Position numbers and translations under genes: made by a program. The notes under the pieces are model-generated. The model was not told the DNA's origin and did no database searches. It saw only the letters and a list, made by a program, of their open reading frames with translations. A stretch of DNA of 64,000 bases from Rhizobacter koreensis (GTDB lineage Bacteria > Pseudomonadota > Gammaproteobacteria > Burkholderiales > Burkholderiaceae_C): positions 1 to 64,000 of the forward strand of contig NZ_JABWMJ010000010.1 of NCBI RefSeq assembly GCF_013366375.1, in the 5' to 3' direction. Shown here one piece after another: positions 1 to 37,697 of this stretch (positions within the stretch are counted from its first letter, which is position 1; the number at the start of each line of letters is the position of its first letter).

Positions 1-88
1 CCTCGGGCATGAACAACTGTAGGTCGTGGCGTCGAGCGAGCCAACTCTGTTGACACTCGCGAATGCAACCTAACATCCCTACCTGACC

Positions 89-2410
89 ATGCCGTCGCGG
101 GCGGCGCAGGCCGGGCCGGGCGGCTTCTCGTACTACGACCAGGTCTGTCTGGCCGAGAACGAGAAGGACCTGCACTGGGCGCACGCCGGGCGCTGCTACC
201 GCTCGCAGGTGGTCATCCGCATGAACGGCCGCACCGCGAGCCGCCGCAGGACCGAGGCCTATCTGCTGATGCTGGATGACGCCAGCACGTGGTCTCCCGC
301 CGCGCTGCCCGACGGCACCGTCTCCGATGGCAAGGTCGAGACCTATGCGCGATGCGTCGAGGCCATCTGCGGGCCGGCGGACACCTTCTTCACGTCGGTC
401 TTCTCGGCACAGGGGAAGCGGCAACTCAGCACCTACCGCAATGGCGAGATCAAGGCCCTGCTGGCCGATCTACTGGGGCAGGAGGACATCCGAGCGCTCG
501 GTCAGAAGGCGGGCGAGACGGCGCGGCAGTTGAAGGCGGCGCTGGCGGCGTTGCGCGCTGAAGCGACCACGTTCGATGCCGAGCGCCAGCGGTTGGAGGA
601 TGACGCCCGTCGATGGCAGGGCGCGGATGAGAGGGTCAAGGCGGCGCAAGCCAGCCGGCAGGCGGCCCATGAACAACGGGAAGCTGCGCGAACGCAAGAG
701 GCGTCGTTGATGGCCCTGCAGGAGCAGGCCAAGGCTGCCGAGAGCCGGCGAGCGCAGTTGGTGGAGGAACTGGCGGGCGCCCGTGCCGAACGTGATCGCA
801 CCCTGCAGGACCTGCGCGCGCAGGATCGGGAGGCAGCGGATCGGCTCGCACGGCTCGACAGCCGTGTGGCGCAGCGTGTCGCGCAGGCCAGGGCGCAGCG
901 CGAACGACTGGAGGTCCGCATCCGGTCCCTGCAGCGGGTGCTGGCGGACGAGGGCGCGGTGGCTCGAGCCAGCCGCCGTCTGCCGCTCGCTACAGAGGTG
1001 GTGCGTCGCCGCGAGGACCGAGTGCTCGCGCTTCGGGATGCCGTCCAGGACCTTGCGCGTCGTCGCGATGCCGTCGCAGGGCTCGGGCAGCGGCTGGCAT
1101 CGCTCGAGCGCGAGGCGGGGCAGGCCGCGCTCCAAGCGGAGGACCTGAGTCGCCGCCTGGCCCTGAGCGACCGGGTGCCCTGCAGCGGCATGACCATGCA
1201 GGGGCAATGCTCCCTGCTGTCGGACGCGCGCGAAGCGGCCGCGCTGGCGCCGAGCGCCCAGCAGCGCATCCGTCAACTCGCTGCGGAGCGGGACAGTCTT
1301 CGGCTTGAACTGCAAGCCCTGCAAGAGGCGGTGGGCCTCAACGTCGACGCACCGCAGGGCCTGAGCCGGGCCGAGTGCCAGTCGAGGCGAGCCCTGGCCC
1401 GTCAGACGGCCTATGCTGCCTGGGCCGCGCGAGGGCCGGAGATGCGCCAGGCGCGCGCGGGTCTTGTCGAAGCGGAGGACGAACTGGCCTTGCTGCCGCC
1501 AGCCCCAGCGACTGACGTGTCGGCCAAGTCGTGCATCGCGATCGACTCCGACTCCGAAGCGGCCGAGCGCCAGCAGATCATCGCCAGCCGGATGCGCGTT
1601 GCCGAGCGTGTCTCGCTGCTGGACGCTCAGACCCAGACGGCCATCCAGCGACTCCAGACGGCGATCGACGCACTGCCGTCGCCGCTGGACGCCGCGCGGC
1701 TCGCACAAGCCCGAGCCCAGGTGGAGCGCTGGCAAGGTGTCCTGGACGAGGCGGAGCGCTCGCATCTGGCCGCTGTCCGCGACGCGCAGGCGCTTGCCGC
1801 CCTGTCGGACCAGTTGAAGGAGCACGGCCGGCGGCGCGACGCAGCCGCGGCTCGCACGGCACGGGTGGAGCAGGAACTCGCCAACTGGCTGCTGTTCGCC
1901 CGCTGCATGGGCAACGATGGCCTGATCGCGCTGGCCATCGACGATGCGGGGCCGACCTTGTCCGGACTGGTGAACGACCTGCTGCTGGCCTGCTATGGCC
2001 CGCGCTTCACGGTGGCCATCGAGACCTTGCAGGAGACGGCCAAGGGCGAGCAGCGCGAGGGCTTCGACATCCGCGTCTACGACGCAGAGTCGAGCGAGGA
2101 CAAGAGCGTCACGGCGATGAGCGGCGGCGAAAGGGTCTGGATCAACGAGTGCCTTGTGCGGGCCGTGGCGCTGTACCTGGCGCAGAACACCGGCCGGCGC
2201 TACGACACCCTGTTCTCCGACGAGACCGACGGGCCGCTGGACCCTGATCGCAAGCGCATGTTCATGGCGATGAAGCGGCGGGTGCTGGAACTGGGTGGCT
2301 ACGCGCGGGAGTACTTCGTGTCGCAGACGCCGGAGCTGACAGCGATGGCGGATGCGGTGATCGATCTGGACGCGATGGCGGCGTTGCACTCAACCTCGAC
2401 GGTCGAGTAG
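89..2410 (+). CDS. 5'-truncated SbcC/Rad50-like ATPase
   Basis: This is the distal part of an SMC-like DNA-repair ATPase. Residues about 130-560 are long coiled coil rich in Arg, Ala, Gln and Glu. A Cys pair spaced C-x8-C (CSGMTMQGQC, about residue 367) sits mid-coil where SbcC/Rad50 carries its zinc hook. The ABC signature (SGGERVW, about 677) and Walker B/D-loop (DTLFSDETDGPLD, about 708) are present. The N-terminal Walker A lobe is absent. The protein starts at a point that in relatives lies some 60 residues after the P-loop. All three forward frames of positions 1-88 contain stops, so the missing part does not continue visibly upstream, and no ribosome binding site precedes the ATG. Without the P-loop it should not hydrolyse ATP by itself. 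It is likely a remnant, or has lost its 5' end at a junction. No sbcD partner is visible. Confidence 0.75.
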   Translation: MPSRAAQAGPGGFSYYDQVCLAENEKDLHWAHAGRCYRSQVVIRMNGRTASRRRTEAYLLMLDDASTWSPAALPDGTVSDGKVETYARCVEAICGPADTFFTSVFSAQGKRQLSTYRNGEIKALLADLLGQEDIRALGQKAGETARQLKAALAALRAEATTFDAERQRLEDDARRWQGADERVKAAQASRQAAHEQREAARTQEASLMALQEQAKAAESRRAQLVEELAGARAERDRTLQDLRAQDREAADRLARLDSRVAQRVAQARAQRERLEVRIRSLQRVLADEGAVARASRRLPLATEVVRRREDRVLALRDAVQDLARRRDAVAGLGQRLASLEREAGQAALQAEDLSRRLALSDRVPCSGMTMQGQCSLLSDAREAAALAPSAQQRIRQLAAERDSLRLELQALQEAVGLNVDAPQGLSRAECQSRRALARQTAYAAWAARGPEMRQARAGLVEAEDELALLPPAPATDVSAKSCIAIDSDSEAAERQQIIASRMRVAERVSLLDAQTQTAIQRLQTAIDALPSPLDAARLAQARAQVERWQGVLDEAERSHLAAVRDAQALAALSDQLKEHGRRRDAAAARTARVEQELANWLLFARCMGNDGLIALAIDDAGPTLSGLVNDLLLACYGPRFTVAIETLQETAKGEQREGFDIRVYDAESSEDKSVTAMSGGERVWINECLVRAVALYLAQNTGRRYDTLFSDETDGPLDPDRKRMFMAMKRRVLELGGYAREYFVSQTPELTAMADAVIDLDAMAALHSTSTVE

Positions 2411-2465
2411 AGCAACGTACGCGGGCGGAATGGCGCGGTTTCGGCATCTCTGGTGAACACGGCCG

Positions 2466-2505
2466 GGTACCTGAAGCGCCAGCGCAACTCACGGCTTCAG
2501 GTACC
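2466..2505. other. Perfect 12-bp inverted repeat
   Basis: GGTACCTGAAGC (2466-2477) and its exact complement (2494-2505) flank a 16-nt loop, between the SbcC-like gene and the next gene. There is no T-run. It could be a hairpin terminator-like structure or a dimeric regulator site for the gene at 2558. Confidence 0.5.
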
Positions 2506-2557
2506 GACGGCTCGCGGCACCACGAGTACTCTTTCGGACACCGAACGAGGATTCACG

Positions 2558-3379
2558 ATGACGACGCATCCGATCACACCCAAGCAGGCCCGCCACGCCT
2601 GCGAGCAGCTGTTGAAGGCCGACCGTGCCGACAAGACAGAGAAGTCGATCCTGCCCAGCGAAGTCAGGGTGATCGACCGACTGCTTGAACGAGGCCTCGA
2701 GCTGGAGGACGCCTATGCCGAGATCCATGGCAAGCTCGACCAGCATCCGCAGGCCCTGAAGGTCTTCTTCGATCTGGTGCAAAGCACGGCGGCGTTCTGG
2801 AGTCCTGAGTCGAATCAGGAGGCTCGCAGAGGAAGGGCCAGGCTGGTCGAGGTCAACCAGGAGATCGGAAGTGTTGCGGCTCACCTGGCCGAGCTGCTGG
2901 ACGAGCGCACCGAGTTGAAGAACCATTCCGGGTTCTCTTGTGACACGCTCTACCACCCGGTGGACGCGATTCACGCTGCGGCCGCACGGAACTACAGCTA
3001 CGAACAGTGGGTGAAGGCGAGACTCGAAGCCCTGACAGGACAGTTCGATCTCAAGTACTGGCCGCCGTTGAGCGCGGTGGTCCAGGCCATTGCCGATGAT
3101 GCCGCGCGAGCGGCCCCTCTTCCGCACGATGCGCTCACCGCCGCCGGTACCGAAGGGCCGCGTGCGAGCCTGGCGGACACGTTCAGGGCGTTCTTCGTCG
3201 CTATCGACGAGCAGAGCAGTCGGAACTTCGGGTTCCTGCCGCGTTCCTTCGAACTCAGTGATCGCTGCGTCGCCAGCTTGCTGAGCTGCGCTCTGGGCCT
3301 GGGGCCGGACGAGGCGGTTGATGCGCCGTACGTGAAGCGCCTCCGCCAGCGTCAACGCGAACGAGCGGTGCAGTCGTGA
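2558..3379 (+). CDS. Hypothetical protein, island-associated
   Basis: A 273-aa soluble protein with no recognised domain. The ATG at 2558 is chosen over upstream in-frame codons because ACGAGG lies 7 nt before it and the upstream stretch contains an inverted repeat. The N-terminal half is helical and acidic/basic mixed (residues about 1-130). A Cys-Asp-Thr-Leu-Tyr-His segment occurs near residue 127. No signal peptide or membrane segment is seen. It follows the SbcC-like remnant in the same direction and is convergent with the next unit. Function unknown. Confidence 0.7.
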   Translation: MTTHPITPKQARHACEQLLKADRADKTEKSILPSEVRVIDRLLERGLELEDAYAEIHGKLDQHPQALKVFFDLVQSTAAFWSPESNQEARRGRARLVEVNQEIGSVAAHLAELLDERTELKNHSGFSCDTLYHPVDAIHAAAARNYSYEQWVKARLEALTGQFDLKYWPPLSAVVQAIADDAARAAPLPHDALTAAGTEGPRASLADTFRAFFVAIDEQSSRNFGFLPRSFELSDRCVASLLSCALGLGPDEAVDAPYVKRLRQRQRERAVQS

Positions 3380-3402
3380 TCTGGTTTGGCAGAAAGAGAA
3401 AG

Positions 3403-3442
3403 GGCGCCGGCCCCATCCCTGCCGGAATGGGCGCGCGGCGCC
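3403..3442. terminator. Candidate bidirectional terminator hairpin
   Basis: GGCGCC arms (3403-3408 and 3437-3442) and CCCAT/ATGGG inner arms (3412-3416 and 3427-3431) form a GC-rich hairpin between convergent genes ending at 3379 and 3464. No clear T-tract, so this is inferred from position and pairing. Confidence 0.45.
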
Positions 3443-3463
3443 GGGGTCGATCAGTGGGCAGGG

Positions 3464-3775
3464 TCAGCCCGCCAGCAGCGTGACCGGCGGCCCGTCTGCC
3501 AGGTGACGGACGATGCGGTTGCCCGCGTGCCGGCGGCCATCGCCCTCGACCTCGTCGACCAGCTGCGCGGGAAGTCGAAGGCCGAGCTCGGCGACCTTGG
3601 CGCGCAAGGTCGCGATGTCCGTCCAGTCCAGCAGGGGCTCCTGCAGGCTGGTGTAGAGCATGTCGCTGCGCTCGTCGAGGACCTGGAGAAAGTAGTCCCC
3701 CAGGCGTCGATCGAAGCCGGCGACGATTTCGACGGGCCGTCCGTCGAGCGTCGCCGTCGCGAGGTGCTGGCTCAT
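3464..3775 (-). CDS. Small hypothetical protein
   Basis: A 103-aa soluble protein of unknown function with no signal peptide or Cys. Its ATG overlaps the stop of the upstream gene by ATGA (3772-3775), so the two are probably translationally coupled. The sequence suggests a beta-rich N-terminus followed by an amphipathic helix. Confidence 0.65.
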   Translation of the reverse strand: MSQHLATATLDGRPVEIVAGFDRRLGDYFLQVLDERSDMLYTSLQEPLLDWTDIATLRAKVAELGLRLPAQLVDEVEGDGRRHAGNRIVRHLADGPPVTLLAG

Positions 3776-4080
3776 GGTCCGGGCTCCGCGCTGTCGAATA
3801 CGGGCAGCCCGTCGATGACGGCCGCCTCGCGGTCGAACATCAGCCAGGCCACGCCGGCGGACTCGGCCACCTCGAACAGCATGGCCAGATCGGGCTCCGA
3901 GGGCACGCGGTACTTCGGTGCCCCGACATAGACGAACCCGCCGCAGTCGGTCGGGTAGGCGTTCACGGACAGGTCGTCATCGGCGAGCTTGTTGCGCGTT
4001 GCCGAACTCAGATGCTTCAGGGACAGGCTGGCCAGCATCTCGGCCTGCTGTCGCAGGCCGGTGGCGGGCAGGGTGTGCAT
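3772..4080 (-). CDS. Small hypothetical protein (possibly DUF5983-like)
   Basis: A 102-aa protein with a good ribosome binding site (GAGGAGG about 9 nt before the ATG). The C-terminal half reads like a small alpha/beta domain (AWLMFDREAAVIDGLPVF). It resembles short proteins found beside radC-like genes in integrative elements, but I am not certain of the family. It forms a pair with the downstream gene through an ATGA overlap. Confidence 0.6.
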   Translation of the reverse strand: MHTLPATGLRQQAEMLASLSLKHLSSATRNKLADDDLSVNAYPTDCGGFVYVGAPKYRVPSEPDLAMLFEVAESAGVAWLMFDREAAVIDGLPVFDSAEPGP

Positions 4081-4294
4081 CGTGGCTTCCTCCTCGGGAT
4101 GAACTGGGAGATGTGGGGGATTCAGCCGCTGGCTTTCTGGTCGAGAGCGTACGGGGCGTGCGCTTCGAACGTCCGGCGCGGGCGAACGTCATGCCGCAGT
4201 CGCGGCAGCGGAACCAGTGCAGGCGACCGAGCGCGCCCAGAGGCACGCCGTGGCCGGCACAGCAGGGGCAGGTCGGGGGTCTTCTCTCCGACAT
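3977..4294 (-). CDS. Putative small zinc-ribbon protein
   Basis: The first 35 residues carry a convincing zinc ribbon: CPCC, then HWFRCRDCGMTF about 20 residues later. A start at 4294 gives about 105 aa; the in-frame ATG two codons upstream is equally possible. The reading frame then runs across the start region of the next gene, a 104-nt overlap. That is suspicious: the true gene may end near 4122 after a frameshift, where the adjacent frame stops. DNA- or RNA-binding would be typical of such ribbons, but no function can be assigned. Confidence 0.45.
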   Translation of the reverse strand: MSERRPPTCPCCAGHGVPLGALGRLHWFRCRDCGMTFARAGRSKRTPRTLSTRKPAAESPTSPSSSRGGSHDAHPARHRPATAGRDAGQPVPEASEFGNAQQARR

Positions 4295-4393
4295 GGGCAT
4301 CCTTGGTTGGGGTGGGATCGGCGGGAGGGGCACCGCCTCGGCGGCGCCCTTCTCGCGGCTGGGTCGTGCAGAGCGTGACGGCCGCGCATGGCG

Positions 4394-5026
4394 TCAAAGC
4401 AGTCCGCGCTCCGCGAAGCTGACGCACTGGTCGCCGGCGACGACGAAGTGGTCGATCAGGCGGATGTCCACCAGCGCCAGCGCCGACTTCAGCGTCTGCG
4501 TCAGGAACTCGTCCGCGCGGCTCGGCTCGGCCTGGCCGCTCGGGTGGTTGTGGGCCACCGCGATCGCGGCGGCGTTGCGGGCCAGGGCGCTCTTGACCAG
4601 TTCCCGCGGGTACACCGAGGTCTGGGTGAGCGTGCCGCGGAACACCTCCTCGTGGGCGATCAGCCGGTGGTTGGCATCCAGGTAGAGCGCGAGGAAGACC
4701 TCGTGCTGCAGGCCTGCGCAGCGCAGGCGCAGCCAGTCCCGAAGGACCTGGGGCGACGACATCACCGGCCCCTGCGCCATCTGGTCACGCAGCTCGCGCA
4801 TCAGCAGCTCGCGGGCGACACCGAGTCGGCGCGTCAGGAGCTGCTGCGTGGCCGGGTCCTCGTGGGGCGTCTCCCGGTCGCTGACGCGCAGCGCAGCCGG
4901 CGTCGGGCCTGGCAATGGGTGGGCCTGCAGGCCCAGCATCTCTGCCACCAGGTCCTCCCGAGACGCATGGGCGGCATCGGGCAGGTCCGGCAGATTTTGA
5001 AGACCCTGGAAAGGGTGGAAGTTCAT
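4394..5026 (-). CDS. radC: RadC/JAB-domain protein
   Basis: A 210-aa RadC-family protein. The JAB/MPN metalloprotease-like fold carries the diagnostic AHNHPSG motif with a downstream Asp (HNHPSG-x5-S-x2-D), near residues 165-176, and IDHFVVAG near the C-terminus. The start at 5026 has GAGGAG upstream; the longer frame reaching 5116 lies in the leader. Cellular RadC proteins are poorly understood. Copies on plasmids and integrative elements lack the HhH region, as here, and are usual accessory genes. It heads a minus-strand unit with the three genes downstream and is preceded by the hairpin leader and a copy of the 23-bp repeat. Confidence 0.9.
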
Positions 5027-5098
5027 GGCGTTCTCCTCTCGTGGCGAAAAGGGAGACGGGAACGCCGTTCCCGGTGGGGACTGGTGTCCCCGCAAGGG
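5027..5098 (-). promoter_or_regulatory. Two-hairpin GC-rich leader upstream of radC
   Basis: On the minus strand the leader folds as GGGGAC-ACCA-GTCCCC (5076-5091) followed by a 7-bp stem CGGGAAC/GTTCCCG (5057-5073), then the ribosome binding site. The same two-hairpin arrangement with different paired bases precedes the genes starting at 6593, 7398 and 8043. Inferred to be a structured RNA element controlling translation or stability. Confidence 0.55.
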
Positions 5099-5156
5099 AA
5101 GGATGTGCAGACACACGACGGAACGTGGCCGGCACGGTGGCTCAGATGATCATCCG

Positions 5157-5179
5157 AGGCAGGTAACGACTGCGACGCC
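5157..5179. repeat. 23-bp repeat, copy 1
   Basis: Core GGTAACGACTGCGACG, identical over 23 bp to copies at 8392 and 29530 and in the same orientation. It lies 131 bp upstream of the radC start. Confidence 0.85.
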
Positions 5180-5576
5180 GCTGCCGCCGGTTCGGTCGGC
5201 ATCGGAAACACTCCTGTCGGGAGTGGGTGTGAGCCCGGCAAGTCTGCGCCATCGGCGCCGTGGATTCAACCGGGGTGGTGCCAGCGACAGAGCCTTTGCC
5301 GCGCTTGCCCGCGCAAAGGGCGCCAGGGTCCGTGCCTTGGTCGGGCATCGGTACGCGGGGAGGTGGCACGGTTCGCGTGACCGCACTGCGCGTGGCCGCG
5401 CCGTTGTGGCTGGGCCACGGCCTGCGCGGATGTCTTGGCGGGCAGACTGCAAAAGTGACACCGCAGAGGCACTACGCTGTCACTGCAGAAATTTCTTCGT
5501 CGCGGGCCGCAGTGGATGTGCACAGACCTGCGCGGGCACGCGAAGATGCGCGGCTTCCCGACAAGGCCGACCCGAC
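5180..5576. other. Non-coding stretch
   Basis: No convincing gene. One short hairpin (CACTCC/GGAGTG around 5212-5228) is visible. The open frames here have Arg/Ala/Gly-rich shadow composition. Confidence 0.4.
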
Positions 5577-5789
5577 ATGCTGCGCACCGGAAACCAGCTT
5601 CGACTGACCCGACCCGAACGGACGCGGCTGGCCCGCATCACCGCCATCGAGCCGGGGTCCATCCGCAGCGTCGCGGACCTGCAGGCCTACGTCCGCCGGT
5701 GCAAGGCCCATTACTGGGGCCACTCCGATGACACCCGCTTCCTGCACTGGCTGATCGAGCGTGAGGTGCAGTCCCTGACCGGACGCTGA
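5577..5789 (+). CDS. Small hypothetical protein
   Basis: A 70-aa basic, helical protein beginning MLRTGNQLRL, with no Cys pairs or membrane segment. The start is the most internal ATG; upstream frame extension has non-coding composition. The ribosome binding site is weak. Composition (balanced Asp, His, Trp, Tyr) is protein-like and the frame ends just before a strong hairpin. Function unknown. Confidence 0.5.
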   Translation: MLRTGNQLRLTRPERTRLARITAIEPGSIRSVADLQAYVRRCKAHYWGHSDDTRFLHWLIEREVQSLTGR

Positions 5790-5825
5790 GCGCCCGTCGC
5801 CCCGTTCGCAGTTGCGGAAACAGGA

Positions 5826-5852
5826 ACGCCCCCGGTGCTGGACCGGGGGCGT
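5826..5852. terminator. Bidirectional terminator hairpin
   Basis: A perfect 10-bp stem (ACGCCCCCGG, 5826-5835, with its complement 5843-5852) and a 7-nt loop lie between convergent genes ending at 5789 and 5922. Confidence 0.65.
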
Positions 5853-5921
5853 GCTGGGTGACGGCCTGGAGTGGATCTGGATCGCGCCGACTGAAGGGTC
5901 TCGAACGTTCGACCGGACGGC

Positions 5922-6593
5922 TCAGCGGAACACGCGCGGCTCGACGCTTGCCCCGCGCATGAACGCGAGGTACGCACCGGCCTTGCCGATGTCGTCGAAG
6001 GTCGCCACGGGCTGCTCGTGCAGCACGACGGCCCAGGGACGGACATCGTCATCACTGGCGCGGATGCGCAGTTCCGGCGGCTGCCAGCGCGGGTGGCGGT
6101 ACAGGGGCAGGCCGGTGTCCCAGGCCATCAGTGCCAGCACATGCGCACAGAGGATGGCTGTACCGGCCGCCTCGCCCGGCTCGACGAGCAGGGGCACCTT
6201 CAGCAGGCCGGTCGAGCGGCCGACCGTGCCGACCACGTCGAACTCGTCGAGCCAGCTCGCGCCGGTGCCGGTGTCGCCCAGCACCAGCCGCACCTTGCGG
6301 CCGTCCCGGCGGCAGGTCTCCAGCACCCTCGCCAGGCGAGGGTCCGTGCCGGGGTCGAAGTAGGTGCTGTGACCCTGGGCGGATTCGCCCCAGGCACGCA
6401 CGGCAGCGAGGTACTTTTCGTAGCCGGTGAGGCTCCCCGCGTCATCGGCGGTCGGCATCAGGTCGGGACGATCGAGCCGCTGTGCGATCTGCCGTGCATG
6501 ATCGCGGGCGTTGTCGAAGCCGAAGCAGGTCACGCCACCTTCGGTGGCGATCACATACAGGCGTTGCTCGGGATTCAGGGTGATGTCTCGCAT
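5922..6593 (-). CDS. Hypothetical protein, island-associated
   Basis: A 223-aa soluble protein of unknown function. It opens MRDITLNPEQRLYVIATEGGVTCFGFDNARDHARQI-like, a beta-rich start followed by helices. A segment rich in Val and Gly (LVLGDTGTGASWLDEFDVVG, about 103-122) precedes a central hydrophobic helix (AILCAHVLALMAW, about 146-158) that seems too polar at its borders to be a membrane anchor. The start has GAGAG plus a CCCC spacer like its neighbours. Same strand and leader style as the genes at 7398 and 8043, suggesting shared control. Confidence 0.7.
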   Translation of the reverse strand: MRDITLNPEQRLYVIATEGGVTCFGFDNARDHARQIAQRLDRPDLMPTADDAGSLTGYEKYLAAVRAWGESAQGHSTYFDPGTDPRLARVLETCRRDGRKVRLVLGDTGTGASWLDEFDVVGTVGRSTGLLKVPLLVEPGEAAGTAILCAHVLALMAWDTGLPLYRHPRWQPPELRIRASDDDVRPWAVVLHEQPVATFDDIGKAGAYLAFMRGASVEPRVFR

Positions 6594-6650
6594 GGGGAAC
6601 TCTCGAAGTTGGGAGGGCGGACACCGGCCCTGGCGGGACGGGCCCGCGGG
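6594..6650 (-). promoter_or_regulatory. GC-rich leader, weaker two-hairpin form
   Basis: Minus-strand GCGGG/CCCGC (6633-6647) followed by GGGC/GCCC (6615-6630), then the start codon region. This is the weakest of the four leaders but keeps the order and spacing. Confidence 0.4.
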
Positions 6651-6765
6651 CGGTTGGATGGGGTGCCGGTGAGCCCAGGCCGCTGGACGTCAGTCCTTGG
6701 CCGAGTCACGTCAGCGATCGAACCCGGTGCAGCCGATGGGGCTGCGCCGGGGTTCGGTTTTCGGA

Positions 6766-7398
6766 TCAGCGCCGGCTGATCTGCACGGCGGGTGCGGGGC
6801 CGTCGACGGGAGGTTCCGGGGCACGCTCGGAGCGGCCTTCGGAGCCACTGACCGGCGACGCCGGGGACATGCCGGCCTGGTGCTGGAAGCGGGCGTGCGC
6901 GTCGGCGAACTCGGCATCGCCCAGCAGCTGACGAACCTGCGCGGCGGCCGGTTCGGGCCTGCTGTCGGCGTCACGGGCCGCGGCTGGGCGCGCGCCCCGC
7001 TTCGATGTTGCCGGCGAGGCCGGCGGTGCGGCGGCAATGGCCTCGTCGAGGACGTCCGCAGTGCGGTGGTACGCCTTCTGCGTGATTCCGCCGACGAAGG
7101 CTGCGGGTCGCTGCAGCGTCCACTGGACCAGCAGGCGCAGCCATTGCCCGATGCGCTTGTCGCGGGCCTGGCGCGCCTTGTGGACGCGCAGCGACTGCTT
7201 GCAGGACAGGTACAGCGCCAGGTGGCGGCGCTTCATGTCGGCGTCGCCGTCGAGCTGCGCCATCACCTCGGCGGCGAGGGCGACGTCACGGCCGACGCGT
7301 CTGTAGAAGCCGACCCAGGCGCGCTGCTCCTCGATGTCGATGGTGCTGCGGCGCGGTGACGGGCTCTGGAAGGATCTGTCTGGGAAAGCATGACTCAT
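6766..7398 (-). CDS. Hypothetical protein with helical core and disordered C-terminus
   Basis: A 210-aa protein. Residues about 15-110 are a conserved-looking helical region (WVGFYRRVGRDVALAAEVM, then KQSLRVHKARQARDKRIGQWLRLLVQW) rich in Arg and Lys. Residues about 125-210 are Pro/Ala-rich and likely disordered. The start at 7398 is supported by TTGGAGAACCCC directly upstream. The longer frame reaching 7671 crosses the leader. Nucleic-acid binding is possible from charge, but no family is recognised. Confidence 0.65.
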   Translation of the reverse strand: MSHAFPDRSFQSPSPRRSTIDIEEQRAWVGFYRRVGRDVALAAEVMAQLDGDADMKRRHLALYLSCKQSLRVHKARQARDKRIGQWLRLLVQWTLQRPAAFVGGITQKAYHRTADVLDEAIAAAPPASPATSKRGARPAAARDADSRPEPAAAQVRQLLGDAEFADAHARFQHQAGMSPASPVSGSEGRSERAPEPPVDGPAPAVQISRR

Positions 7399-7462
7399 GG
7401 GGTTCTCCAAGAATGCGAGGGAACCCCGGCCCCGACGGGAGACGGTGACTCCCGGAGGGTGG
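7399..7462 (-). promoter_or_regulatory. Two-hairpin GC-rich leader
   Basis: Minus-strand CGGGAG/CTCCCG stem (7436-7454, 7-nt loop) followed by a shorter GGGG/UCCC pairing, then TTGGAGAA. The paired bases differ from those of the radC leader while pairing is kept. Confidence 0.5.
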
Positions 7463-7624
7463 ATGGCGAGGACGGCTGAAAGCCGAGGGAAACGGGGTGT
7501 CGGGTGATGGCGTCCCGATGCCATCGCTGGCGGTCGGTTCACCATCCCCGAGACCCGAGGACTCGATCGGCACGAGGTCGAGCCGCCGGCGGTGCCGTGA
7601 CGGACGACTCGATGCCCGCGACCA

Positions 7625-7837
7625 TCAGGTCGTGAGCACGCGAGCGGCGCCTCGGCGCAGGCCCTCGGCAATGCCGATCCAGCGGTCGGCGATCCGGTCC
7701 AGGTAGACCAGGTCGTCGGCCGCGATCTCGCCCGAGGCGCGGAGCCGGGCGATGACTTCCTTGACCAGGAGGGGATCCTCCCGGGCCAGCACGATGGCCG
7801 TCGAGGCGATGCGCCTGCGGTAGGTGTCGACCGTCAT
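7625..7837 (-). CDS. Small hypothetical protein
   Basis: A 70-aa helical protein (MTVDTYRRRIASTAIVLARE start). ATG at 7837 follows the upstream gene's TGA by two nucleotides, so it is the second gene of a two-gene unit. Balanced composition with few rare residues supports a real gene. No signal peptide, membrane segment or Cys is present. Function unknown. Confidence 0.6.
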   Translation of the reverse strand: MTVDTYRRRIASTAIVLAREDPLLVKEVIARLRASGEIAADDLVYLDRIADRWIGIAEGLRRGAARVLTT

Positions 7838-7839
7838 GG

Positions 7840-8043
7840 TCAGCACACCGTCGTGCAGCGCTCGGACGCCAGAGGGTCCGCGGTCTCGCACACCATGCGC
7901 ATGGACGCGTGGGGCGTGCAGGGCCGGGACCGGAGCAGCGCCGGCAGGGTGACAGGCCGCCGGGCGGGCACACGGGCAAGCCCGGTACCACCCAGCAGTG
8001 CACACACCGGCGCGACAGCGCGGTTCCAGGGAACGGGACTCAT
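7840..8043 (-). CDS. Small hypothetical protein, first gene of a pair
   Basis: A 67-aa Arg/Pro-rich frame with four Cys and a mildly hydrophobic N-terminus (APVCALLGGTGLA). Its start at 8043 is precisely placed behind GAAGGAGAACCCCC and the conserved hairpin leader, which is the main argument for it being translated. Composition alone is not persuasive. It may act mainly as a leader peptide coupling translation of the 70-aa gene that follows. Confidence 0.45.
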   Translation of the reverse strand: MSPVPWNRAVAPVCALLGGTGLARVPARRPVTLPALLRSRPCTPHASMRMVCETADPLASERCTTVC

Positions 8044-8112
8044 GGGGGTTCTCCTTCAGGGGTGAAGGGGAACGCCCATCCCTGGCGGGGAACTGGGGTT
8101 CCCCGTCTGGGA
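8044..8112 (-). promoter_or_regulatory. Two-hairpin GC-rich leader
   Basis: Minus-strand GGGGAAC/GTTCCCC-like 7-bp stem (8087-8104) followed by a GGGA/UCCC stem (8068-8082) and GAAGGAGAA. Same order as the radC leader; the changed base pairs are compensated. Confidence 0.55.
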
Positions 8113-8714
8113 TGCCTTGCCGGGAAGGCAAGGCGCTTCGTCGCGCACCGGTGCGTGCGCGAGCTGCAGAGGTCCGCGTCCGAGAGGACGGGGCCAGGGC
8201 AGATGCGTGCGTCAGGCCAGGCTTCTGATCGAGATCAGGCCGGGCTGGTGAACGCAGGGCGCGTCACGACGCAGAGGTCGTGGTCGGCGCATGCGAGGAG
8301 GGGCCACGACACAGGGTCATGGCCGGCTCCTGGTTTCGGATCCGGATGGATCTGAATCGGCCCGGCACACGGATGTGCCGGACGGGCCACAAGGCAGGTA
8401 ACGACTGCGACGCCAGCTGGGCTGGACTTCAGGGCGACCAAAGCCACCGATGAAGGCTGAGCAGACGCGATGTCCGCAGGAAGCCACATCAGTATCGGAC
8501 GGGGTCCCTCGGTCGGCAACGGACCCGAGGTCTCATCGCGGCAATGCCCGCCCAAGCGACCGGCTCGGCCGACGCTTGGGCGGGCAATCGATTCCGAGTC
8601 CTCCACGACGGTGGCCGGGAATACGGCGCCGCACGGTTGCAGGGCGTGCGGGCCGGCTGACGGTTCGTATAGTGGGCGGATCAAATTCTCCAGCAGACCG
8701 GTTCCGCGCTATCC
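8113..8714. other. Non-coding stretch with a strong hairpin
   Basis: No gene is supported. It holds a perfect 8-bp hairpin CCGGCACA-CGGA-TGTGCCGG (8362-8381) directly beside the second copy of the 23-bp repeat. The 8715 gene begins at its right end. Confidence 0.5.
8392..8414. repeat. 23-bp repeat, copy 2
   Basis: Core GGTAACGACTGCGACG, identical to the copies at 5157 and 29530 and in the same orientation. It lies 349 bp upstream of the minus-strand gene starting at 8043. Confidence 0.85.
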
Positions 8715-8960
8715 ATGACCGTCGAACGCTATGCCTTCAATGACTGCGAAGCCACCACCGCGGCAGGGGTGCCGCTGCGCATTCCTGCTGGCGTTCACCA
8801 CGTCGAGCGGCGATCGCTGGTGTTTCGCGTGCGCCTCGGGGGACGCGAGCTCGATCTGACCCTGGCCGAGTGGGAACGCCTGCTGCACGCGGGCGGTGTC
8901 GGGCCGATCTCCGTCGTGGTCGCGGATCCGCAGGGGACCGGCGACACCCATCCTCGCTGA
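8715..8960 (+). CDS. Small hypothetical protein upstream of CoiA-like gene
   Basis: An 81-aa protein with a compact beta-rich sequence (RSLVFRVRLGGRELDLTLAEWERLL). The next gene starts 10 nt after its stop, so the two probably form an operon. No recognised domain, signal or metal site. Confidence 0.6.
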   Translation: MTVERYAFNDCEATTAAGVPLRIPAGVHHVERRSLVFRVRLGGRELDLTLAEWERLLHAGGVGPISVVVADPQGTGDTHPR

Positions 8961-8970
8961 GGCGCGCACC

Positions 8971-10584
8971 GTGGCGAAGGCAGAGTGGACCGTCCGTGCC
9001 GGGAACTCAGATCGCCAGATCCCGGCGACCCCCGGACCCGTGCCGCTCAAGTGGGCCAGCGACGCGGCGACGGGTGCTCCCCGGTACATCCACGACCCGG
9101 ACATCGTCTCGGCAGCCGCGAGTGCTGTATGTCCCGGCTGTGGCAGCAAGTTGTGGACGGTCCTGGCGGGTCAGCCGCAGCGCGTTCGACCGACGGCGCA
9201 TTTCCGCCACGTGGCCGGCACGCCGCGCACCGCGTGCGTTGTCGTCGCAGCGCGTCTTGCCGCCTCGCACCGCCTGGTGTCGCTGGGCTACATCGACCTG
9301 CCGCGACGGCGGGTGACCGCCGTCTCGACGGGTTTCAGCGGTGAAGGTTACGAGGGATGGGGGGAGGAGCCGGCGCAGCGTGTTCGGATCAGCGATGTTC
9401 GGATGGTCGATCCGGCCGCGGCGGAGCTGACGCTGGACGATGGCAGGACCATCCTGGTGGACCTGACCGGCGAGCGCGTCGAAGGCGAGGCGGGCCGCGC
9501 GGTCATCACGATCAATCTTTCGGACCCGGCGCTGGCGGAGTTGGACGTGGACGAGCTGCGTGCGCGACTTCGGCTGCTGCCTCCCGCGAGTTGGTGCTCC
9601 CACTGGCGTGATCGCGAGTTGACGTCGCAGGCGCGGAGCCGGGCCGCGGACCAAGCGCGCCAGGCGCTTGACGCATGGACCGACGAGGACGAGGCGGGGT
9701 TCCAGGCGCAACTGCCGCCGGGCACGGACCCGGAGGCGACCGCGACGATGCGTCGCGAGACCTTGCTGCACCGAACCGTCAAGTCGATCCTCGAAGACGC
9801 GAGGCGCATCCGAGCACCGGGCCTGCATGTCGCCATGCAGCGTGACGCACCTGATGGCTACGGCGACGGCTGGGACGACCATCGCGTCGAGATCCTGTGG
9901 TGGAGCGCGCCCGCCGAACTGAGCTTCGAGGCGGTGGAGCTGGAACGGCGCCTCGGCCACATCGTTCCGGATGTTGTCGGGCGTCTGGCGGAGCCTCGAC
10001 CGCGCATCCTCGGCGGCATGGCCACCCGGGTTCAACGGGGCGACGACGAGGACGAGGACGAGCAGCACGATGAGTTCCCGGCGCACTGGTCGGAGGCGGT
10101 GCTGATCGAAGTGGCGGTCACGCACAAGGTGGATGAGGAGAAGCTGCGGAAGATCCGGCAAATCGATCTGCCGACACTCGAGATCGACCTCGGTTCGATG
10201 GGCGGACGCCTGACGCTCGACGGTCTGCGCAAGCTGGTCGTGGATGGAACGGACGGGAAGCAGTGGCTGCACCACCCTGCGCTGAGAACCCGCCGTGCCG
10301 TGCTGCGCTACAAGCTCCGTGAACATGCCGAGGTACTGGCCTACCAGGCCCACATCCGGGCACACCGTCTTGAGCGGTTGCTCGAAACGCCCTCATCACA
10401 GTGGGCGCAGCGGTACCTGCTGGCACTCAGGGCGTTCTGCGATGGCAACATCAGGATCGAGCGGCTTCGAAAGAAGGAAGGTCGGCTTCGCCGTCGACGC
10501 CATCACCGCCCGGAGGTCGCAGCCGGCTGGGATCTGACGACCGGTGGCGGCCGTGCCGATCCGATGACTCGGGCGTGCGTCTGA
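8971..10584 (+). CDS. CoiA-like nuclease-domain protein
   Basis: A 537-aa protein starting at GTG 8971 behind TGAGG. An N-terminal Cys/His site (VCPGCGSKL, then TAHFRHVAGTPRTAC) matches the zinc-finger-like region of competence protein CoiA and its relatives. A helical segment ETLLHRTVKSILEDA follows at about 265. A PD-(D/E)XK-type core is readable as IVPDVVGRL (about 330) and LIEVAVTHKVDEEKLRKI (about 376). The acidic insert between them (DDEDEDEQHDE) is low complexity. CoiA-like proteins are predicted nucleases acting on incoming or recombining DNA; in integrative elements their role is unproven. Likely cytoplasmic, and paired with the 81-aa gene before it. Confidence 0.7.
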   Translation: MAKAEWTVRAGNSDRQIPATPGPVPLKWASDAATGAPRYIHDPDIVSAAASAVCPGCGSKLWTVLAGQPQRVRPTAHFRHVAGTPRTACVVVAARLAASHRLVSLGYIDLPRRRVTAVSTGFSGEGYEGWGEEPAQRVRISDVRMVDPAAAELTLDDGRTILVDLTGERVEGEAGRAVITINLSDPALAELDVDELRARLRLLPPASWCSHWRDRELTSQARSRAADQARQALDAWTDEDEAGFQAQLPPGTDPEATATMRRETLLHRTVKSILEDARRIRAPGLHVAMQRDAPDGYGDGWDDHRVEILWWSAPAELSFEAVELERRLGHIVPDVVGRLAEPRPRILGGMATRVQRGDDEDEDEQHDEFPAHWSEAVLIEVAVTHKVDEEKLRKIRQIDLPTLEIDLGSMGGRLTLDGLRKLVVDGTDGKQWLHHPALRTRRAVLRYKLREHAEVLAYQAHIRAHRLERLLETPSSQWAQRYLLALRAFCDGNIRIERLRKKEGRLRRRRHHRPEVAAGWDLTTGGGRADPMTRACV

Positions 10585-10592
10585 CAGCCTTT

Positions 10593-10985
10593 CTACAGCG
10601 CCGCCATCACCCGCTCAAGGCGCTGTCGCACTTCGCCGGCAAGCTGCGCGATCTCTGGCCGATCTACCAGGTCGAGCACGGCGCTGGGATCCATGAACTC
10701 GACTCGGACGCTTCCGGACGGGTCTTCGCGCACCACCACATTGCATGGCAGCAACACCCCGATCGAGGGCTCTGCCGTCAGCGCGCGGTGGGCCAGCGCC
10801 GGGTTGCACGCCCCGAGGATCCGGTAGGGCGGCATGTCCGCACCGAGCTTCTTCTTCAGCGTCGCCTGTACATCGATCTCGGTGAGCACGCCGAAGCCCT
10901 CTGCCTGCAGCGCCAGCGTGACACGAGCCAGCGCGTCCGCGAACGACAGCCCGACGGTCTTGCCGAAGCCGTACTTGGCGTCCAT
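10593..10985 (-). CDS. DUF302-domain protein
   Basis: A 130-aa protein of the DUF302 family: FGKTVGLSFADALARVTLALQAEGFGVLTEIDVQATLKKKLG is the typical opening, followed by YRILGACNPALAHRAL and the IGVLLPCNVVV core. DUF302 proteins are common next to copper and other metal-handling genes; their activity is unknown. The start lies 8 nt after the upstream Met-rich gene's stop, so they form an operon. The plus-strand neighbour ends only 8 nt away on the other side. Confidence 0.9.
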   Translation of the reverse strand: MDAKYGFGKTVGLSFADALARVTLALQAEGFGVLTEIDVQATLKKKLGADMPPYRILGACNPALAHRALTAEPSIGVLLPCNVVVREDPSGSVRVEFMDPSAVLDLVDRPEIAQLAGEVRQRLERVMAAL

Positions 10986-10993
10986 GCCTGCCC

Positions 10994-11509
10994 TCACTTG
11001 GTTGGCGCCGGCGTCGGGTTCATCCACTGCTGATGCCACATCATGTGGTTCATCATCATCTGCTGCATCGGCAGGTACTGGTCCATCATGTACTGGCGCT
11101 GCTTGAGCTGCTCGGGCGTGAGGTTCGAGTAGTAGCCGCGCATGTGGCCCCAGCCCATCATCGGGCCGCCCATCATCATGCCCGGGCCGCCCATGCAGCA
11201 GCCCATGCCGCCGCCGGGTCCCCACATGCCGTGCATCGCCGTCATCGCCGACTGCATGCTCGTCCAGTGCTCCTGCAGCAGCTTCTGTCGCTCCTGGGGA
11301 TCCTGCGTCGCGCGCATCCGTTCCATCTGGGCCTGCATCAGCTTCATGTGCTCCTGCACCTGCGCCAGCTGCTTGTCGAACTCGGCGGTGTTCGGGGCGG
11401 CCACCTTCGACGCTGCGGCCTTGTCGGCCGCAGGGCCCTGCTGGGCGGCGACGGGCATTGAGAACGGGACGGCCAGCGCGACAGCCAGCGCGATAAAGGT
11501 CTTTGTCAT
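10994..11509 (-). CDS. Periplasmic Met/His-rich metal-binding protein
   Basis: A 171-aa protein with a clear signal peptide (MTKTFIALAVALAVPFSMPVAAQ). A helical charged segment (about 45-95) is followed by a Met-Gly-rich stretch (about 98-120) containing a vicinal Cys pair (MGCCMGG) and MMMGGPMMGW. The tail holds MMMNHMMWHQQW. Clustered Met, His and Cys ligands are typical of periplasmic Cu(I)/Ag(I) binding proteins. The helical part recalls Spy/CpxP-like proteins but I cannot assign it firmly. GGAG precedes the ATG. It leads an operon with DUF302 and belongs to the metal-resistance cargo. Confidence 0.75.
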   Translation of the reverse strand: MTKTFIALAVALAVPFSMPVAAQQGPAADKAAASKVAAPNTAEFDKQLAQVQEHMKLMQAQMERMRATQDPQERQKLLQEHWTSMQSAMTAMHGMWGPGGGMGCCMGGPGMMMGGPMMGWGHMRGYYSNLTPEQLKQRQYMMDQYLPMQQMMMNHMMWHQQWMNPTPAPTK

Positions 11510-11941
11510 GTCTTGGCTCCTGAGTGGCGTGCCGTACCGACACCGTGGGTCATGGTGCACGCGGCGGCCGCTTCAGGGCTTGCGCAGAATCAAGGCGCTG
11601 ATGCAGGCGGCCGATGGCGGAGCTCCACCCCGCGTGCCGCGATCTCCCCGCGGAGCGGGCACCAGCGTGGCCCGCTCGGCGTCCCGTCAGCATCGAGTCG
11701 TTTGGAAGGCGTCTACCCGCGCGACACCGGCCGCACCTATCTGCGGCGCAGCGCCGCTCCCGGTTAGGCTCTACGACCGCCCGTCCAGGCCCGGATCGAG
11801 TTTGCGCACCCGTCCCTACGCTGTGATGGCCCAGACATAAGTGCTGTTGCCACAACATCTCGATGACCCCTGCGAATGGGTAAAGCCTGTAGCGGATGTA
11901 AAGTATTGGGCACTTTCCCAACCGCAACCCGTCAGAGTGCC
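11510..11941. other. Divergent intergenic region
   Basis: Promoter region between the minus-strand Met-rich gene and the plus-strand pbrR-like gene. No gene is supported. I could not identify a convincing MerR-type operator in it. Confidence 0.4.
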
Positions 11942-12385
11942 ATGAAGATCGGAGCCTTGGCCGAAGCCACCGGAACCCCCGTCGAGACGATTCGCTTCTA
12001 CGAGCGCGAAGGTCTTCTGCCACCGCCGGCGCGGGCGGACAACAACTACCGCATGTACCTGCCGGAGCACGCCGAGCGGCTTGCCTTCATTCGGCAGTGC
12101 CGGAACCTGGACATGACGCTCGACGAGATCCGGGCCCTCATCATGTTGCGGGATGCGCCAGCAAAGGATTGCGGCGAGGTCAACGCGCTGCTGGACGAGC
12201 ACATCGGCCACGTGGTGCACCGCATCCGCGAACTCCGGCAGCTCGAAAGGGACCTGAAGGCGCTGCGCGCGCGCTGCGCGGGAGCACGAGCGCTGGCGGA
12301 GTGCGGCATCCTCAGTCGCCTGGACGGCGCGCCCGCCGTACCGGCCACGCGGGCGAAGCGGCGGCACGTGCCAGGTGCACATTGA
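11942..12385 (+). CDS. pbrR: MerR-family Pb/Cd-responsive regulator
   Basis: A 147-aa MerR-family activator/repressor. The N-terminal winged helix (MKIGALAEATGTPVETIRFYEREGLLPPPARADNNYRMY-like) is followed by the dimerisation helix. Metal-ligand cysteines match the PbrR/CadR pattern: Cys in KDCGEVNALLDEHI (about residue 78) and the C-terminal pair in RCAGARALAECGIL (about 112 and 121). Such proteins bind Pb(II), Cd(II) or Zn(II) and activate promoters with 19-bp spacers; two of these occur in this window at 19188 and 19917. The gene is not directly divergent from the ATPase, unlike in Cupriavidus pbr. Confidence 0.85.
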   Translation: MKIGALAEATGTPVETIRFYEREGLLPPPARADNNYRMYLPEHAERLAFIRQCRNLDMTLDEIRALIMLRDAPAKDCGEVNALLDEHIGHVVHRIRELRQLERDLKALRARCAGARALAECGILSRLDGAPAVPATRAKRRHVPGAH

Positions 12386-12730
12386 GGCGGGACCATGGGC
12401 AACAAGGCTTTGCCGGCGGTGACGGTGAACGGCACGCCTGCCACGACGCTTGCGCGTGAGACTTAACGCGCTGCGACGGGCGCCAGGCTCGGTCGACATG
12501 GCGCTTCATGCAGCCTGATCGGAAAGTGCACCGGATGCCGGAACGGGTCCGGCTTGACCGCCCCGCCTTGCAAGTTGCCGCCGTGGACCCTTGCTTCGAT
12601 GGATTCAGCACTGCCGGCATCCACCGCGCTGCTGCGCGTGCCCGAGGCGCTTTGCCAGCCGAGTAGGGGCTTGACTCTGAACGGACTTCATGCCTGAGCA
12701 TTCGCAGCCCGTCGATAGCCTGTTGTTGAG
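12386..12730. other. Intergenic stretch before dsbA-like gene
   Basis: No gene is supported. A TTGACTCTG string (12671-12679) matches the left half of the two MerR-type promoters in the window, but the dyad on its right is not preserved, so it may be a decayed operator. Confidence 0.35.
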
Positions 12731-13369
12731 ATGAACCGTCGCAGCTTCTCCAAGATCGCCTCCGTATCCCTTGCCGGCGCCTCGGTATCTGTTCTAGCCG
12801 AACCGTGGCCTGTGGAAGGCAAGCACTACGTGGCCGTGTCGCCCCGCCAGCCCACACTGGACCCCAACCAAGTCGAGGTTCTGGAGTTCTTCGCGTACGG
12901 CTGCGAGCACTGTCATGCGTTCGAGCCGACCATCGATGCCTGGCAGAAGAAGCTGCCCAGCGACGTGCGATTCAGGCGCATTCCCGTCGCCTTTCGAGCA
13001 GGCCCCATGGTGTTGCACCAGAGGCTGTACTTCGCGATCGAATCTTTGGGGCTCGTGGAGCAACTGCATCGCAAAGTGTTCACCACCCTGCACGAGGAGC
13101 GCAGGCGCATCGACACGGTCGAGCACGTTGCGGATTTTGCAACCAGGAACGGCGTCGATGCCGGCCGTCTGGTCAGCACGGTGAACTCTTTCTCGGTTGC
13201 TTCCAAGGTGACGCAGGCCACCACCCTGGCCAACGGTTACCGCTTCCAGGGAACGCCGTCGATAGGCGTCGACGGCCGCTGGCTCACCTCGGGCTCGATG
13301 GCGGGCTCGAACCCCAAGTCGTTGGAGGTGGCCGAGCATCTGATGCGCCTGGCAAAGCGGCGCACCTGA
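12731..13369 (+). CDS. dsbA: DsbA-like thiol:disulfide oxidoreductase
   Basis: A 212-aa periplasmic protein with a signal peptide (MNRRSFSKIASVSLAGASVSVLA, twin-Arg-like start). The CxxC active site CEHC is near residue 58 in the FFAYGCEHCHAFEP context, and the cis-Pro loop GTPSIGVDG is near 175. DsbA oxidises cysteines in exported proteins. Here it sits between the metal regulator and the pbr operon, where many neighbours are Cys-rich, so a role in maintaining exported metal proteins is plausible. The island location suggests an accessory copy in addition to a housekeeping dsbA. Confidence 0.88.
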   Translation: MNRRSFSKIASVSLAGASVSVLAEPWPVEGKHYVAVSPRQPTLDPNQVEVLEFFAYGCEHCHAFEPTIDAWQKKLPSDVRFRRIPVAFRAGPMVLHQRLYFAIESLGLVEQLHRKVFTTLHEERRRIDTVEHVADFATRNGVDAGRLVSTVNSFSVASKVTQATTLANGYRFQGTPSIGVDGRWLTSGSMAGSNPKSLEVAEHLMRLAKRRT

Positions 13370-13471
13370 AAGCGGGTATGGGTCCCCCTGTCAACGGAGT
13401 TCCGGCAGGCACGGTTGCCGCCGACAGTTGACGGCCTCGGCAGCGCCGTGCAAGGTCGTCGCCGCTTCCAC

Positions 13472-37688: not shown

Positions 37689-37697
37689 GGCGGCATC

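Follow-up and report, generated by a model that had tools for sequence, protein, structure and literature searches.

Can one RNA structure, repeated in front of unrelated genes of a mobile island, hold them under a common post-transcriptional control? The question is raised by a 64,000-nucleotide (nt) stretch of Rhizobacter koreensis DNA (contig NZ_JABWMJ010000010.1, positions 1 to 64,000; hereafter the window), in which a preliminary description had placed a leader of two consecutive hairpins before each of four minus-strand start codons (5026, 6593, 7398 and 8043). The start codons and their stems are present in the sequence, and the leaders at 5026, 7398 and 8043 do belong to one structure made up of two helices, P1 and P2; the leader at 6593 is not supported as a member. 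The structure of P1-P2, its covariation, position and sharing among genes, and the low predicted accessibility of the Shine-Dalgarno (SD) sequence in the aligned leaders come directly from computation. We propose, with a probability of roughly 0.6, that P1-P2 is a mobile-element leader that sequesters the ribosome binding site (RBS), is fitted with interchangeable 5' domains and gates the translation of island genes. The breadth of the sharing, the true second stem and a conserved upstream 5' element had all been overlooked in the preliminary description. In what follows, G, C and L numbers are our handles for genomes, contigs and loci, G000 being the window's own genome.

A two-hairpin leader before three genes

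Homologues of the downstream genes were gathered by tblastn over fetched loci, and 39 of 44 listed leaders were aligned (alignment A2), with 5 near-duplicates left out. At an earlier step 9 of 41 homologues had been set aside, being near-identical to others or having a wrong start or none. Twelve leaders were then added manually (two of those 9 among them, with corrected starts), and A2 includes 11 of the 12. A covariance model of the leaders of the window's island type, R2, scores the four flagged leaders as follows.

5024-5102, minus strand: P1-P2 leader of radC; P1 GGGGAC/GTCCCC, P2 GGCGTTC/GAACGCC ending at the ATG (5026); 61.4 bits, E 3.5e-12, its copy L001 being in the training set
8041-8115, minus strand: P1-P2 leader of a 67-amino-acid (aa) gene (start codon 8043); 62.5 bits, E 1.9e-12, its copy L002 being in the training set
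7396-7463, minus strand: P1-P2 leader of a 210-aa gene (start codon 7398); P2 GGGGTTC/GAACCCC; 56.8 bits, E 4.5e-11, its near-copy L117 being in the training set
6591-6658, minus strand: fourth flagged leader (223-aa gene), unsupported as a member; 18.6 bits, E 0.092

In A2, P1 pairs GGGNAN with NTNCCC and is followed by P2, which pairs GG(C/U/G)GUUCCC with GG-GAAC(G/A/C)CC. The 3' arm of P2 (GAACNCC) lies directly before the start codon, its final base adjoining that codon in nearly all of the 39 leaders, and the base of P2 reaches the SD. The first stems as originally read, GGGGAC/GTCCCC, GGGGAAC/GTTCCCC and CGGGAG/CTCCCG, occupy homologous positions of this one structure; the GCGGG/CCCGC stem of 6593 is unsupported. 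The second stem had been misread, and the supported one is P2, GG(C/U/G)GUUC with GAAC(G/A/C)CC immediately 5' of the AUG. The third pair of P2 is U-A in 21 of the aligned leaders, C-G in 10, G-C in 2 and U-G in 1, and is unpaired in 5. Over 15 pairs, 87.0% of cells are paired, against 81.9 ± 0.7 in shuffled alignments and at most 60.8 in slid ones, and 37 cells carry two-sided changes, against 16.4 ± 4.5 after shuffling (0/500) and at most 20 after sliding; the 7 pairs that show such a change do not exceed the shuffled count (121/500). The covariation bears out the earlier suggestion of a selected RNA structure common to unrelated genes for the families of these three leaders and, as described below, for other islands.

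Fold stability was computed as a z-score against dinucleotide shuffles, 200 per leader. None of the 200 shuffles is as stable as the leaders at 5026 (z -4.34) and 8043 (z -7.42), and the result for 7398 is weak (z only -1.31, with 23/200 shuffles as stable). When the whole stretch between the inferred transcription start and the start codon is folded, z is -4.13 for the leader of radC (211 nt) and -8.34 for that of the 67-aa gene (444 nt).

P1-P2 in other mobile islands

When applied to sequence outside its training, R2 finds matches at E 1e-4 in 11 of 229 genomes drawn from the class, own included (10 of the 228 others); in several cases more than one match lies on a contig. Seven loci from G557, G521, G525, G560, G053 and own contig C7 (105 kb) hold 53 matches at E 0.05. 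Among the best 40 of these 53, 39 end on a start codon, an agreement that is partly built in as the model itself ends in ATG, and 33 head an open reading frame (ORF) of at least 60 aa. No match at E up to 1 appeared in control stretches such as L157, L158, L163, L165 and L186-L189, nor in the window outside the flagged leaders.

In G053, R2 matches follow all four Rfam radC RNAs of L212 and L213 (E 6e-6 to 8e-3), three of them after 10-25 nt and one overlapping the 3' end of the RNA. The RNAs lie at L212 6013-6161, 7523-7680 and 9480-9625 and at L213 7745-7895, three of them within 4 kb on one contig. The island around them encodes PFL_4703-type integrating-conjugative-element (ICE) proteins (TIGR03746 E 4.5e-99, TIGR03752, TIGR03749) and the DUF3577/STY4534 ICE replication protein. 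Proteins encoded in the other-island loci include DUF3577, DUF6094, RadC, SSB, RecT, an SNF2-like helicase and the conjugation protein TraL, plus a sub-cut-off match to TraE; L208, L212 and L213 are the loci whose type of element is established.

Covariation recurs in these islands. In a structure-fitted alignment, 12 of the 15 pairs show compensatory changes, and 88 cells carry two-sided changes against 33.1 ± 4.5 in shuffles and at most 24 when slid. A sequence-only model, R3, was built to remove the bias of structure fitting; 12 loci were searched with it and the same pairs counted in the resulting alignment A5 (43 matches, of which 37 are distinct; many are incomplete and some lie on the other strand). 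Here 27 cells carry two-sided changes against 16.7 ± 2.7 (0/500; slid, at most 17) and 79.4% of cells are paired against 75.7 ± 1.1; the counts of pairs with two-sided change (6) and of pair types (19) do not exceed those of shuffled alignments (276/500 and 235/500). The outer helix of P1 is reached by 23 of 36 leaders in the other islands against 13.5 expected (maximum 21 in 500 runs), and by 11 of the 39 A2 leaders against 10.7. In the two best-scoring leaders outside training, pairing adds to the score of sequence alone: L211:8093 rises from 45.4 to 63.6 bits (+18) and L209:6586 from 26.7 to 47 bits (+20). Mobile islands of several kinds carry P1-P2 as a module in front of their genes, either at the head of an operon or within it.

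A conserved 5' element upstream

An exact 18-mer lies on the same strand upstream of the leaders at 5026 and 8043 and at 29530, three copies in the window where 0.04 would be expected. The core that these copies share has the consensus GGCGTCGC(A/G)GTCGNNACC(T/C)GCC and forms a stem-loop, GC(A/G)G-UCGNNAC-C(U/C)GC, in which a 4-bp stem of GC(A/G)G with C(T/C)GC encloses a 7-nt loop. In 74 nonredundant sites the stem reads GCAG/CTGC 64 times, GCGG/CCGC 9 times and GCAG/CTGT once. The site pattern fixes three of the four stem pairs, and the A/G with T/C pair is the informative one: it is A-U or G-C, and A with C or G with T occurs at 0 of 74 sites. The pattern would have admitted both mismatches, and as the searches were written with A and T the double change was not favoured.

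A further hairpin, P5, runs into the core, its 3' arm ending exactly in the GG of GGCGTCGC. The sequence of its stem varies (CCAGC/GCTGG, CCGAC/GTCGG, CCGGG/CCCGG, CCACCCG/CGGGTGG, CCGTTGC/GCAACGG). Of 91 sites 53 have the stem, where shuffling yields 9.6 on average and never more than 19 in 200 runs; among the 74 nonredundant sites 45 have it in full, where flank swapping yields 15.0 on average and 24 at most in 2000 runs. A fixed-column count fails for P5 as its loop length varies, and support rests on the swap test, which like the core-stem counts takes all 74 sites. Alignment A1 holds 57 of the 74; the 17 left out are mostly of the integrase-like class, which lacks P5 at the usual place and has an upstream hairpin a few nt further from the core. 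R1, a model of the P5 hairpin and core, places three copies in the window.

8392-8437, minus strand: 5' core element with P5 CCAGC-cca-GCTGG running into GGCGTCGCAGTCGTTACCTGCC; 52.8 bits, E 1.4e-8, its sequence (L002) being in the training set
5157-5200, minus strand: 5' element preceding the radC leader, with an intact core and P5 not found; 42.8 bits, E 2.2e-6
29530-29591, minus strand: 5' core upstream of an integrase-like gene and facing it; 40.9 bits, E 5.6e-6, exact 18-mer

In the 728 kb of loci selected for the core, R1 matches 95 times at E up to 1, and 94 of these matches hold the core with at most 3 substitutions; the exception is the weakest, at window 49607 (E 0.84). The own genome has 10 core matches at up to 3 mismatches (4 for a reversed control pattern), 8 of which are at up to 1 mismatch, on contigs C2, C40, C14 and C17. 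At family level, 13 of 200 genomes, own included, carry the core at up to 2 mismatches (reversed pattern 2), and a species-wide scan of 84,980 genomes found it in at least 117 stretches. By title, the 80 core stretches listed comprise 50 from Burkholderiales, 8 from Rhodocyclales or Accumulibacter, 12 with unspecific proteobacterial titles and 10 others, some plainly chance. An even draw of 249 genomes of the phylum returned the core model at E 1e-4 from the own genome alone, under strict filters and with 25 candidates scored per genome. Among 72,556 plasmid records 19 and 2 matched, all short and poor, and viral contigs gave 1 core stretch, without the conserved flank. A coding leader peptide across the core was rejected, stops being alike in all frames (63/63/53 of 102 sites upstream and 53/63/62 downstream).

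One further core copy precedes an AlpA gene (PF05930, own contig C14); the alpA copies of G183 and G159 point in the opposite direction to the remaining ones. In C40 and G159, divergent called genes flank the cores that stand before radC, the 67-aa gene and the integrase-like gene; G183 is less clear. At L166 4573-4647, L167 8141-8215 and L168 9239-9313 (+), P1-P2 matches (E 1e-4 to 2e-3) stand before another gene of core-bearing loci, one that has no core itself. Sub-threshold matches resembling suhB/mmgR and anti-hemB small RNAs (up to 33.4 and 34.8 bits; L018 2499-2585 and L019 2605-2689) sit near core-bearing leaders of G015 and G013.

When three gene classes are aligned, a promoter-like TTGANN-16/18-NANACT ends 49-80 nt upstream of the core, so that the core probably sits in 5' untranslated RNA. 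The pattern is present at 15 of 72 core sites against 0.14 (maximum 2) in 100 shuffles. Beyond it, GCCANNNGCAA or its complement is found at 18 of 72 sites against 1.4 (maximum 4) in 100 shuffles. Both patterns were derived from the alignment of these same loci, so the counts are not independent of it. The dyad-like GCCANNNGCAA, at about -101 to -156 from the core with one of the 18 at -259, is possibly a shared operator. The window's own promoter-like sequences are the following.

5241-5269, minus strand: TTGAAT-17-CAGACT preceding the radC leader, its end about 62 nt 5' of the core; found by pattern search (L001), missed by a stricter sigma-70 scan
8491-8519, minus strand: TTGCCG-17-GATACT before the leader of the 67-aa gene; by eye with 15 homologous sites aligned, outside the pattern and the sigma-70 scan
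29610-29639, minus strand: TTGACC-18-TCCACT before the integrase-like gene; by eye with 12 homologous sites aligned, outside the pattern

How the leader may work

A helix conserved over the SD or the bases before the start codon is what marks an RBS-sequestering leader, and P2 is such a helix, with compensatory changes. The predicted unpaired probability of the SD is 0.18 in the 39 A2 leaders against 0.36 in 265 control genes (p 6e-8), which makes the post-transcriptional control device of the preliminary description a reasonable proposal for these leaders. P2 would pair the bases just before the start codon, usually with part of the SD, with the upstream GGNGUUCCC arm, and translation would start poorly until P2 was opened. 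At some operon heads P1-P2 follows a larger 5' RNA domain, namely the radC RNA in the islands of one genome and the P5 hairpin with the core stem-loop in the PRTRC-type island. The opener might be a host or element RNA-binding factor, the 5' domain, or ribosomes arriving from the upstream gene. We infer from the computed features that the leader is transcribed, that it gates translation and that some factor acts on it. A ProQ search returned one match per genome in 5 of 5 genomes, away from motif copies, which sets aside an island ProQ as the factor; host ProQ or an island protein of unassigned family is possible.

It is also conceivable, though we hold this larger proposal only tentatively, that P1-P2 serves an element-wide translational regulon in islands of many proteobacteria. 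The same gate would stand before many genes, even inside operons, and operon heads would add a 5' domain (radC RNA or P5-core RNA) sensing or recruiting one factor, so that the whole island would stay silent and then be switched on together after transcription.

Several observations weigh against the reading of P1-P2 as an RBS-sequestering leader of island genes. A2 is not free of selection, as 11 of its 39 leaders were added by hand because their hairpins had already been seen, and RNAalifold, the check suggested in the preliminary description, by itself finds only 7 pairs on the gapped alignment, one with compensatory changes. In the other islands the predicted SD is unpaired at 0.30 (39 leaders) against 0.40 (32 controls), with p 0.09. 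In a test on gene starts with an SD, chosen without the model, five other-island loci have P2 at 21 of 62 starts, where flank swapping gives a mean of 13.5 and reaches 21 at most in 200 runs; loci of the window's island type have it at 13 of 54 (9.8, highest 18), which is not significant. In the five other-island loci only 30 of 83 called genes have a match at their start. The stricter sigma-70 scan found no promoter in window 4900-8900. The core precedes alpA and integrase-like genes where no P1-P2 is seen, and because of this the two are separable modules. Finally, the leader at 6593 folds no better than its shuffles (z -0.24, 76/200 as stable), and it is unsupported because the homologues of its gene carry another leader (by eye) and R2 gives E 0.092 against 4.5e-11 to 1.9e-12 for the other three. 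To be read beside these counts, the flank-swap control is conservative because the arms resemble one another between genes. Chromosomal starts show P2 in 7 of 45 against 7.5, and an early, dirty set had a 6-bp stem at 89 of 315 starts, where swapping gave 58.5 on average and at most 71 in 50 runs.

Alternative explanations

The alternative that survives best, although we think it rather improbable, is that the hairpins act on mRNA life: the pair would cap the 5' side of each gene segment, block or guide RNases and so set relative amounts along operons. The recurrence of P1-P2 at consecutive genes in gene-dense stretches, for example the L207 genes starting at 7126, 7870 and 8737, would be expected of such a cap, but a pure stability element would need neither P2's fixed place at the start codon nor its extension over the SD region.

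Less probable again is a co-transcriptional control in which the core is a put- or ops-like site, these being classes of antitermination site, and a CGGGAAC/GTTCCCG stem with a pyrimidine tail is an attenuator competing with P2. The core does lie 49-80 nt after a promoter-like sequence, and GGGA before the P2 arm is common. The strong 7-bp stem that the preliminary description reported before radC is indeed present, but it uses the bases of P2, and the two are mutually exclusive.

5057-5073, minus strand: alternative hairpin CGGGAAC-GGC-GTTCCCG followed by TCTCCCTTTT, exclusive with the P2 of radC; terminator-like scan

That scan, over 4900-8900, gave 3 sites against 1.0 ± 0.9 in shuffles. The tail, however, is only C/U-rich, with no long U run, and in the A2 leaders the competing GGGA-UUCCC hairpin was rejected by flank swapping, its presence in 24 of 39 giving no signal (21.7, maximum 26). 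An RfaH/ops-type antitermination leader is accompanied by a NusG paralogue besides NusG itself; each of the 5 genomes searched has a single PF02357 match, and a NusG paralogue was rejected. At radC itself, the stem with its C/U-rich tail may leave room for attenuation.

We consider it very unlikely that the structures work as DNA, as single-strand promoters or recombination sites on transferred DNA in the manner of Frpo or STAXI, in spite of their place in a mobile element beside DNA-handling genes. Sequence resembling a conventional promoter is present upstream, P2 keeps to start codons, and no match to PF03432, the relaxase family searched, was found near motif copies in 10 genomes. An Frpo-like single-strand promoter has all of its copies on the transferred strand, but the alpA copy faces the opposite way in G183 and G159.

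Slightly less probable still is regulation of the leaders by CsrA/RsmA, a protein that recognises GGA in the loops of hairpins covering the SD. The GGA of the SD does lie in or beside P2, and CsrA matches occur on leader contigs, about 37 kb (G521 C8) and 39 kb (G525 C1) from the leaders; with these matches on the same contig as P1-P2, CsrA is a candidate for the G521 and G525 islands. For the window's island CsrA is unlikely unless a diverged CsrA was missed: the five genomes with that island type (G000, G159, G183, G053, G015) have no PF02599 match, against 4 of 4 other genomes, and the SD in the aligned leaders is predicted to be mostly paired and not exposed in a loop. The CsrA-family genes themselves, at G521 contig C8 281-424 and G525 contig C1 45701-45847, are possibly island-carried, and mobile elements are known to carry CsrA genes (PMC7366521).

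Ordinary GC-rich sequence, chance pairing and common ancestry would account for the 6593 leader and for the lack of a significant excess at unselected starts in loci of the window's island type, but this is the least probable explanation, given compensatory changes beyond shuffled and slid controls in A2 and in the structure-fitted and sequence-only alignments, and an R2 that is silent at E up to 1 in control stretches and in the window outside the flagged leaders.

The island and its genes

The genes on which P1-P2 and the core bear are listed here with the marker gene of the island type; the 223-aa gene starting at 6593 matched no family in the Pfam search.

4397-5026, minus strand: radC gene, PF04002 E 2.1e-42
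6766-7398, minus strand: 210-aa gene, no Pfam family; homologues carry the same leader
7840-8043, minus strand: 67-aa gene, no Pfam family; homologues carry the same leader
27533-28963, minus strand: integrase-like gene 3' of the third core copy, true start uncertain; PF12834 E 5.5e-7, PF12835 E 5.2e-5
30098-31135, plus strand: actin-like gene, marker of the island type; ALP_N E 1.1e-26

The counterpart of the actin-like gene in locus L173 (G159) is PRTRC_D (TIGR03739 E 8e-153), and by this homologue the gene at 30098-31135 is identified as PRTRC protein D. The window and G159 share that protein, RadC, DUF5983 and DUF1173, and both also hold a Gp3-like directionality factor, a Toprim primase and a PRTRC-like ParB (below family cut-off); typing as PRTRC covers these two among the core-bearing islands. 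A second close copy of the window's island lies in the same genome on contig C40 (about 221-238 kb), without a roughly 13 kb insert between core copies, and holds 3 of the genome's 8 near-exact cores. GC content in the window is 65-72% per 2-kb step.

Other features were seen in passing. A small conserved ORF (LRLTRPERTRLARI...) at window about 5576-5789 (plus strand) is divergent from radC and has look-alikes, by eye, in G159 and on G000 contig C7. An Rfam ALIL pseudoknot (RF01497, 100.3 bits) at window 21664-21780 (plus strand) probably marks where an IS3-like element (21386-22641, named by eye) undergoes frameshifting. Window 36999-46295 (minus strand) holds what by eye is a kdp-like potassium-transport operon with a sensor pair. 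Inside the G183 island, three consecutive genes (411, 310 and 333 aa; contig C1 359074-362236) are by eye recombinase-in-trio-like.

Comparison with known systems

With Rfam 15 at gathering scores, no family lies on P1-P2 in the loci searched, except that one radC RNA of G053 overlaps it with its end; a Mu-gpT-DE match on 5024-5053 at E up to 10 is at chance level (17.6 bits against a gathering score of 49). How large conjugative islands are silenced and jointly switched on is an open question, studied mainly at promoters. Searches of the open-licence literature, PMC9286271, PMC2864571, PMC7466150 and PMC7366521 included, listed no description of such leaders. P1-P2 looks like a so far unlisted structured cis leader of mobile elements with a repeated RBS module and an exchangeable 5' domain.

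RBS-sequestering leaders, among them riboswitch expression platforms and ribosomal-protein leaders, likewise place a hairpin over the SD and the bases before the start codon. P1-P2 differs in being repeated before many different genes of one mobile element and in having no known ligand or protein. The STAXI motif is also a structured element near DNA-handling and antirestriction genes, but is made up of tandem pseudoknots (PMC2864571), and there is no STAXI Rfam match here. In ICEclc, a 27-bp motif common to transfer-competence promoters likewise stands before several operons of one element (PMC9286271); the likeness is one of placement.

The nearest relative in working is the radC RNA (RF01754), which is also a structured cis RNA before mobile-element genes, in several copies per genome. 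The window's leader and core precede radC, the position typical of that RNA, but the leader is not a member of the Rfam family by its covariance model: there was no match in window 1-14000 at E up to 10 or in 12 relatives at E up to 5, none at E 0.001 in the own genome, where scoring covered 141 of the 986 first-look candidates, and none in 10 further genomes with P1-P2 matches, where controls of the same search were also silent. The window's 5' core has another sequence and fold, the core model reaching at best E 0.064 on radC RNA loci. In three of four copies in G053, the 149-nt Rfam model ends before P1-P2. The likeness lies downstream, where P1-P2 also closes all four G053 leaders, of which one precedes radC; this hairpin pair, outside Rfam's definition, is present also at window 5024 and 8041. 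With P1-P2 the radC RNA would gain a partner module on its downstream side. The leader also supplies a sequence signature by which island genes can be recognised, and its repetition gene after gene would add a post-transcriptional layer to island control.

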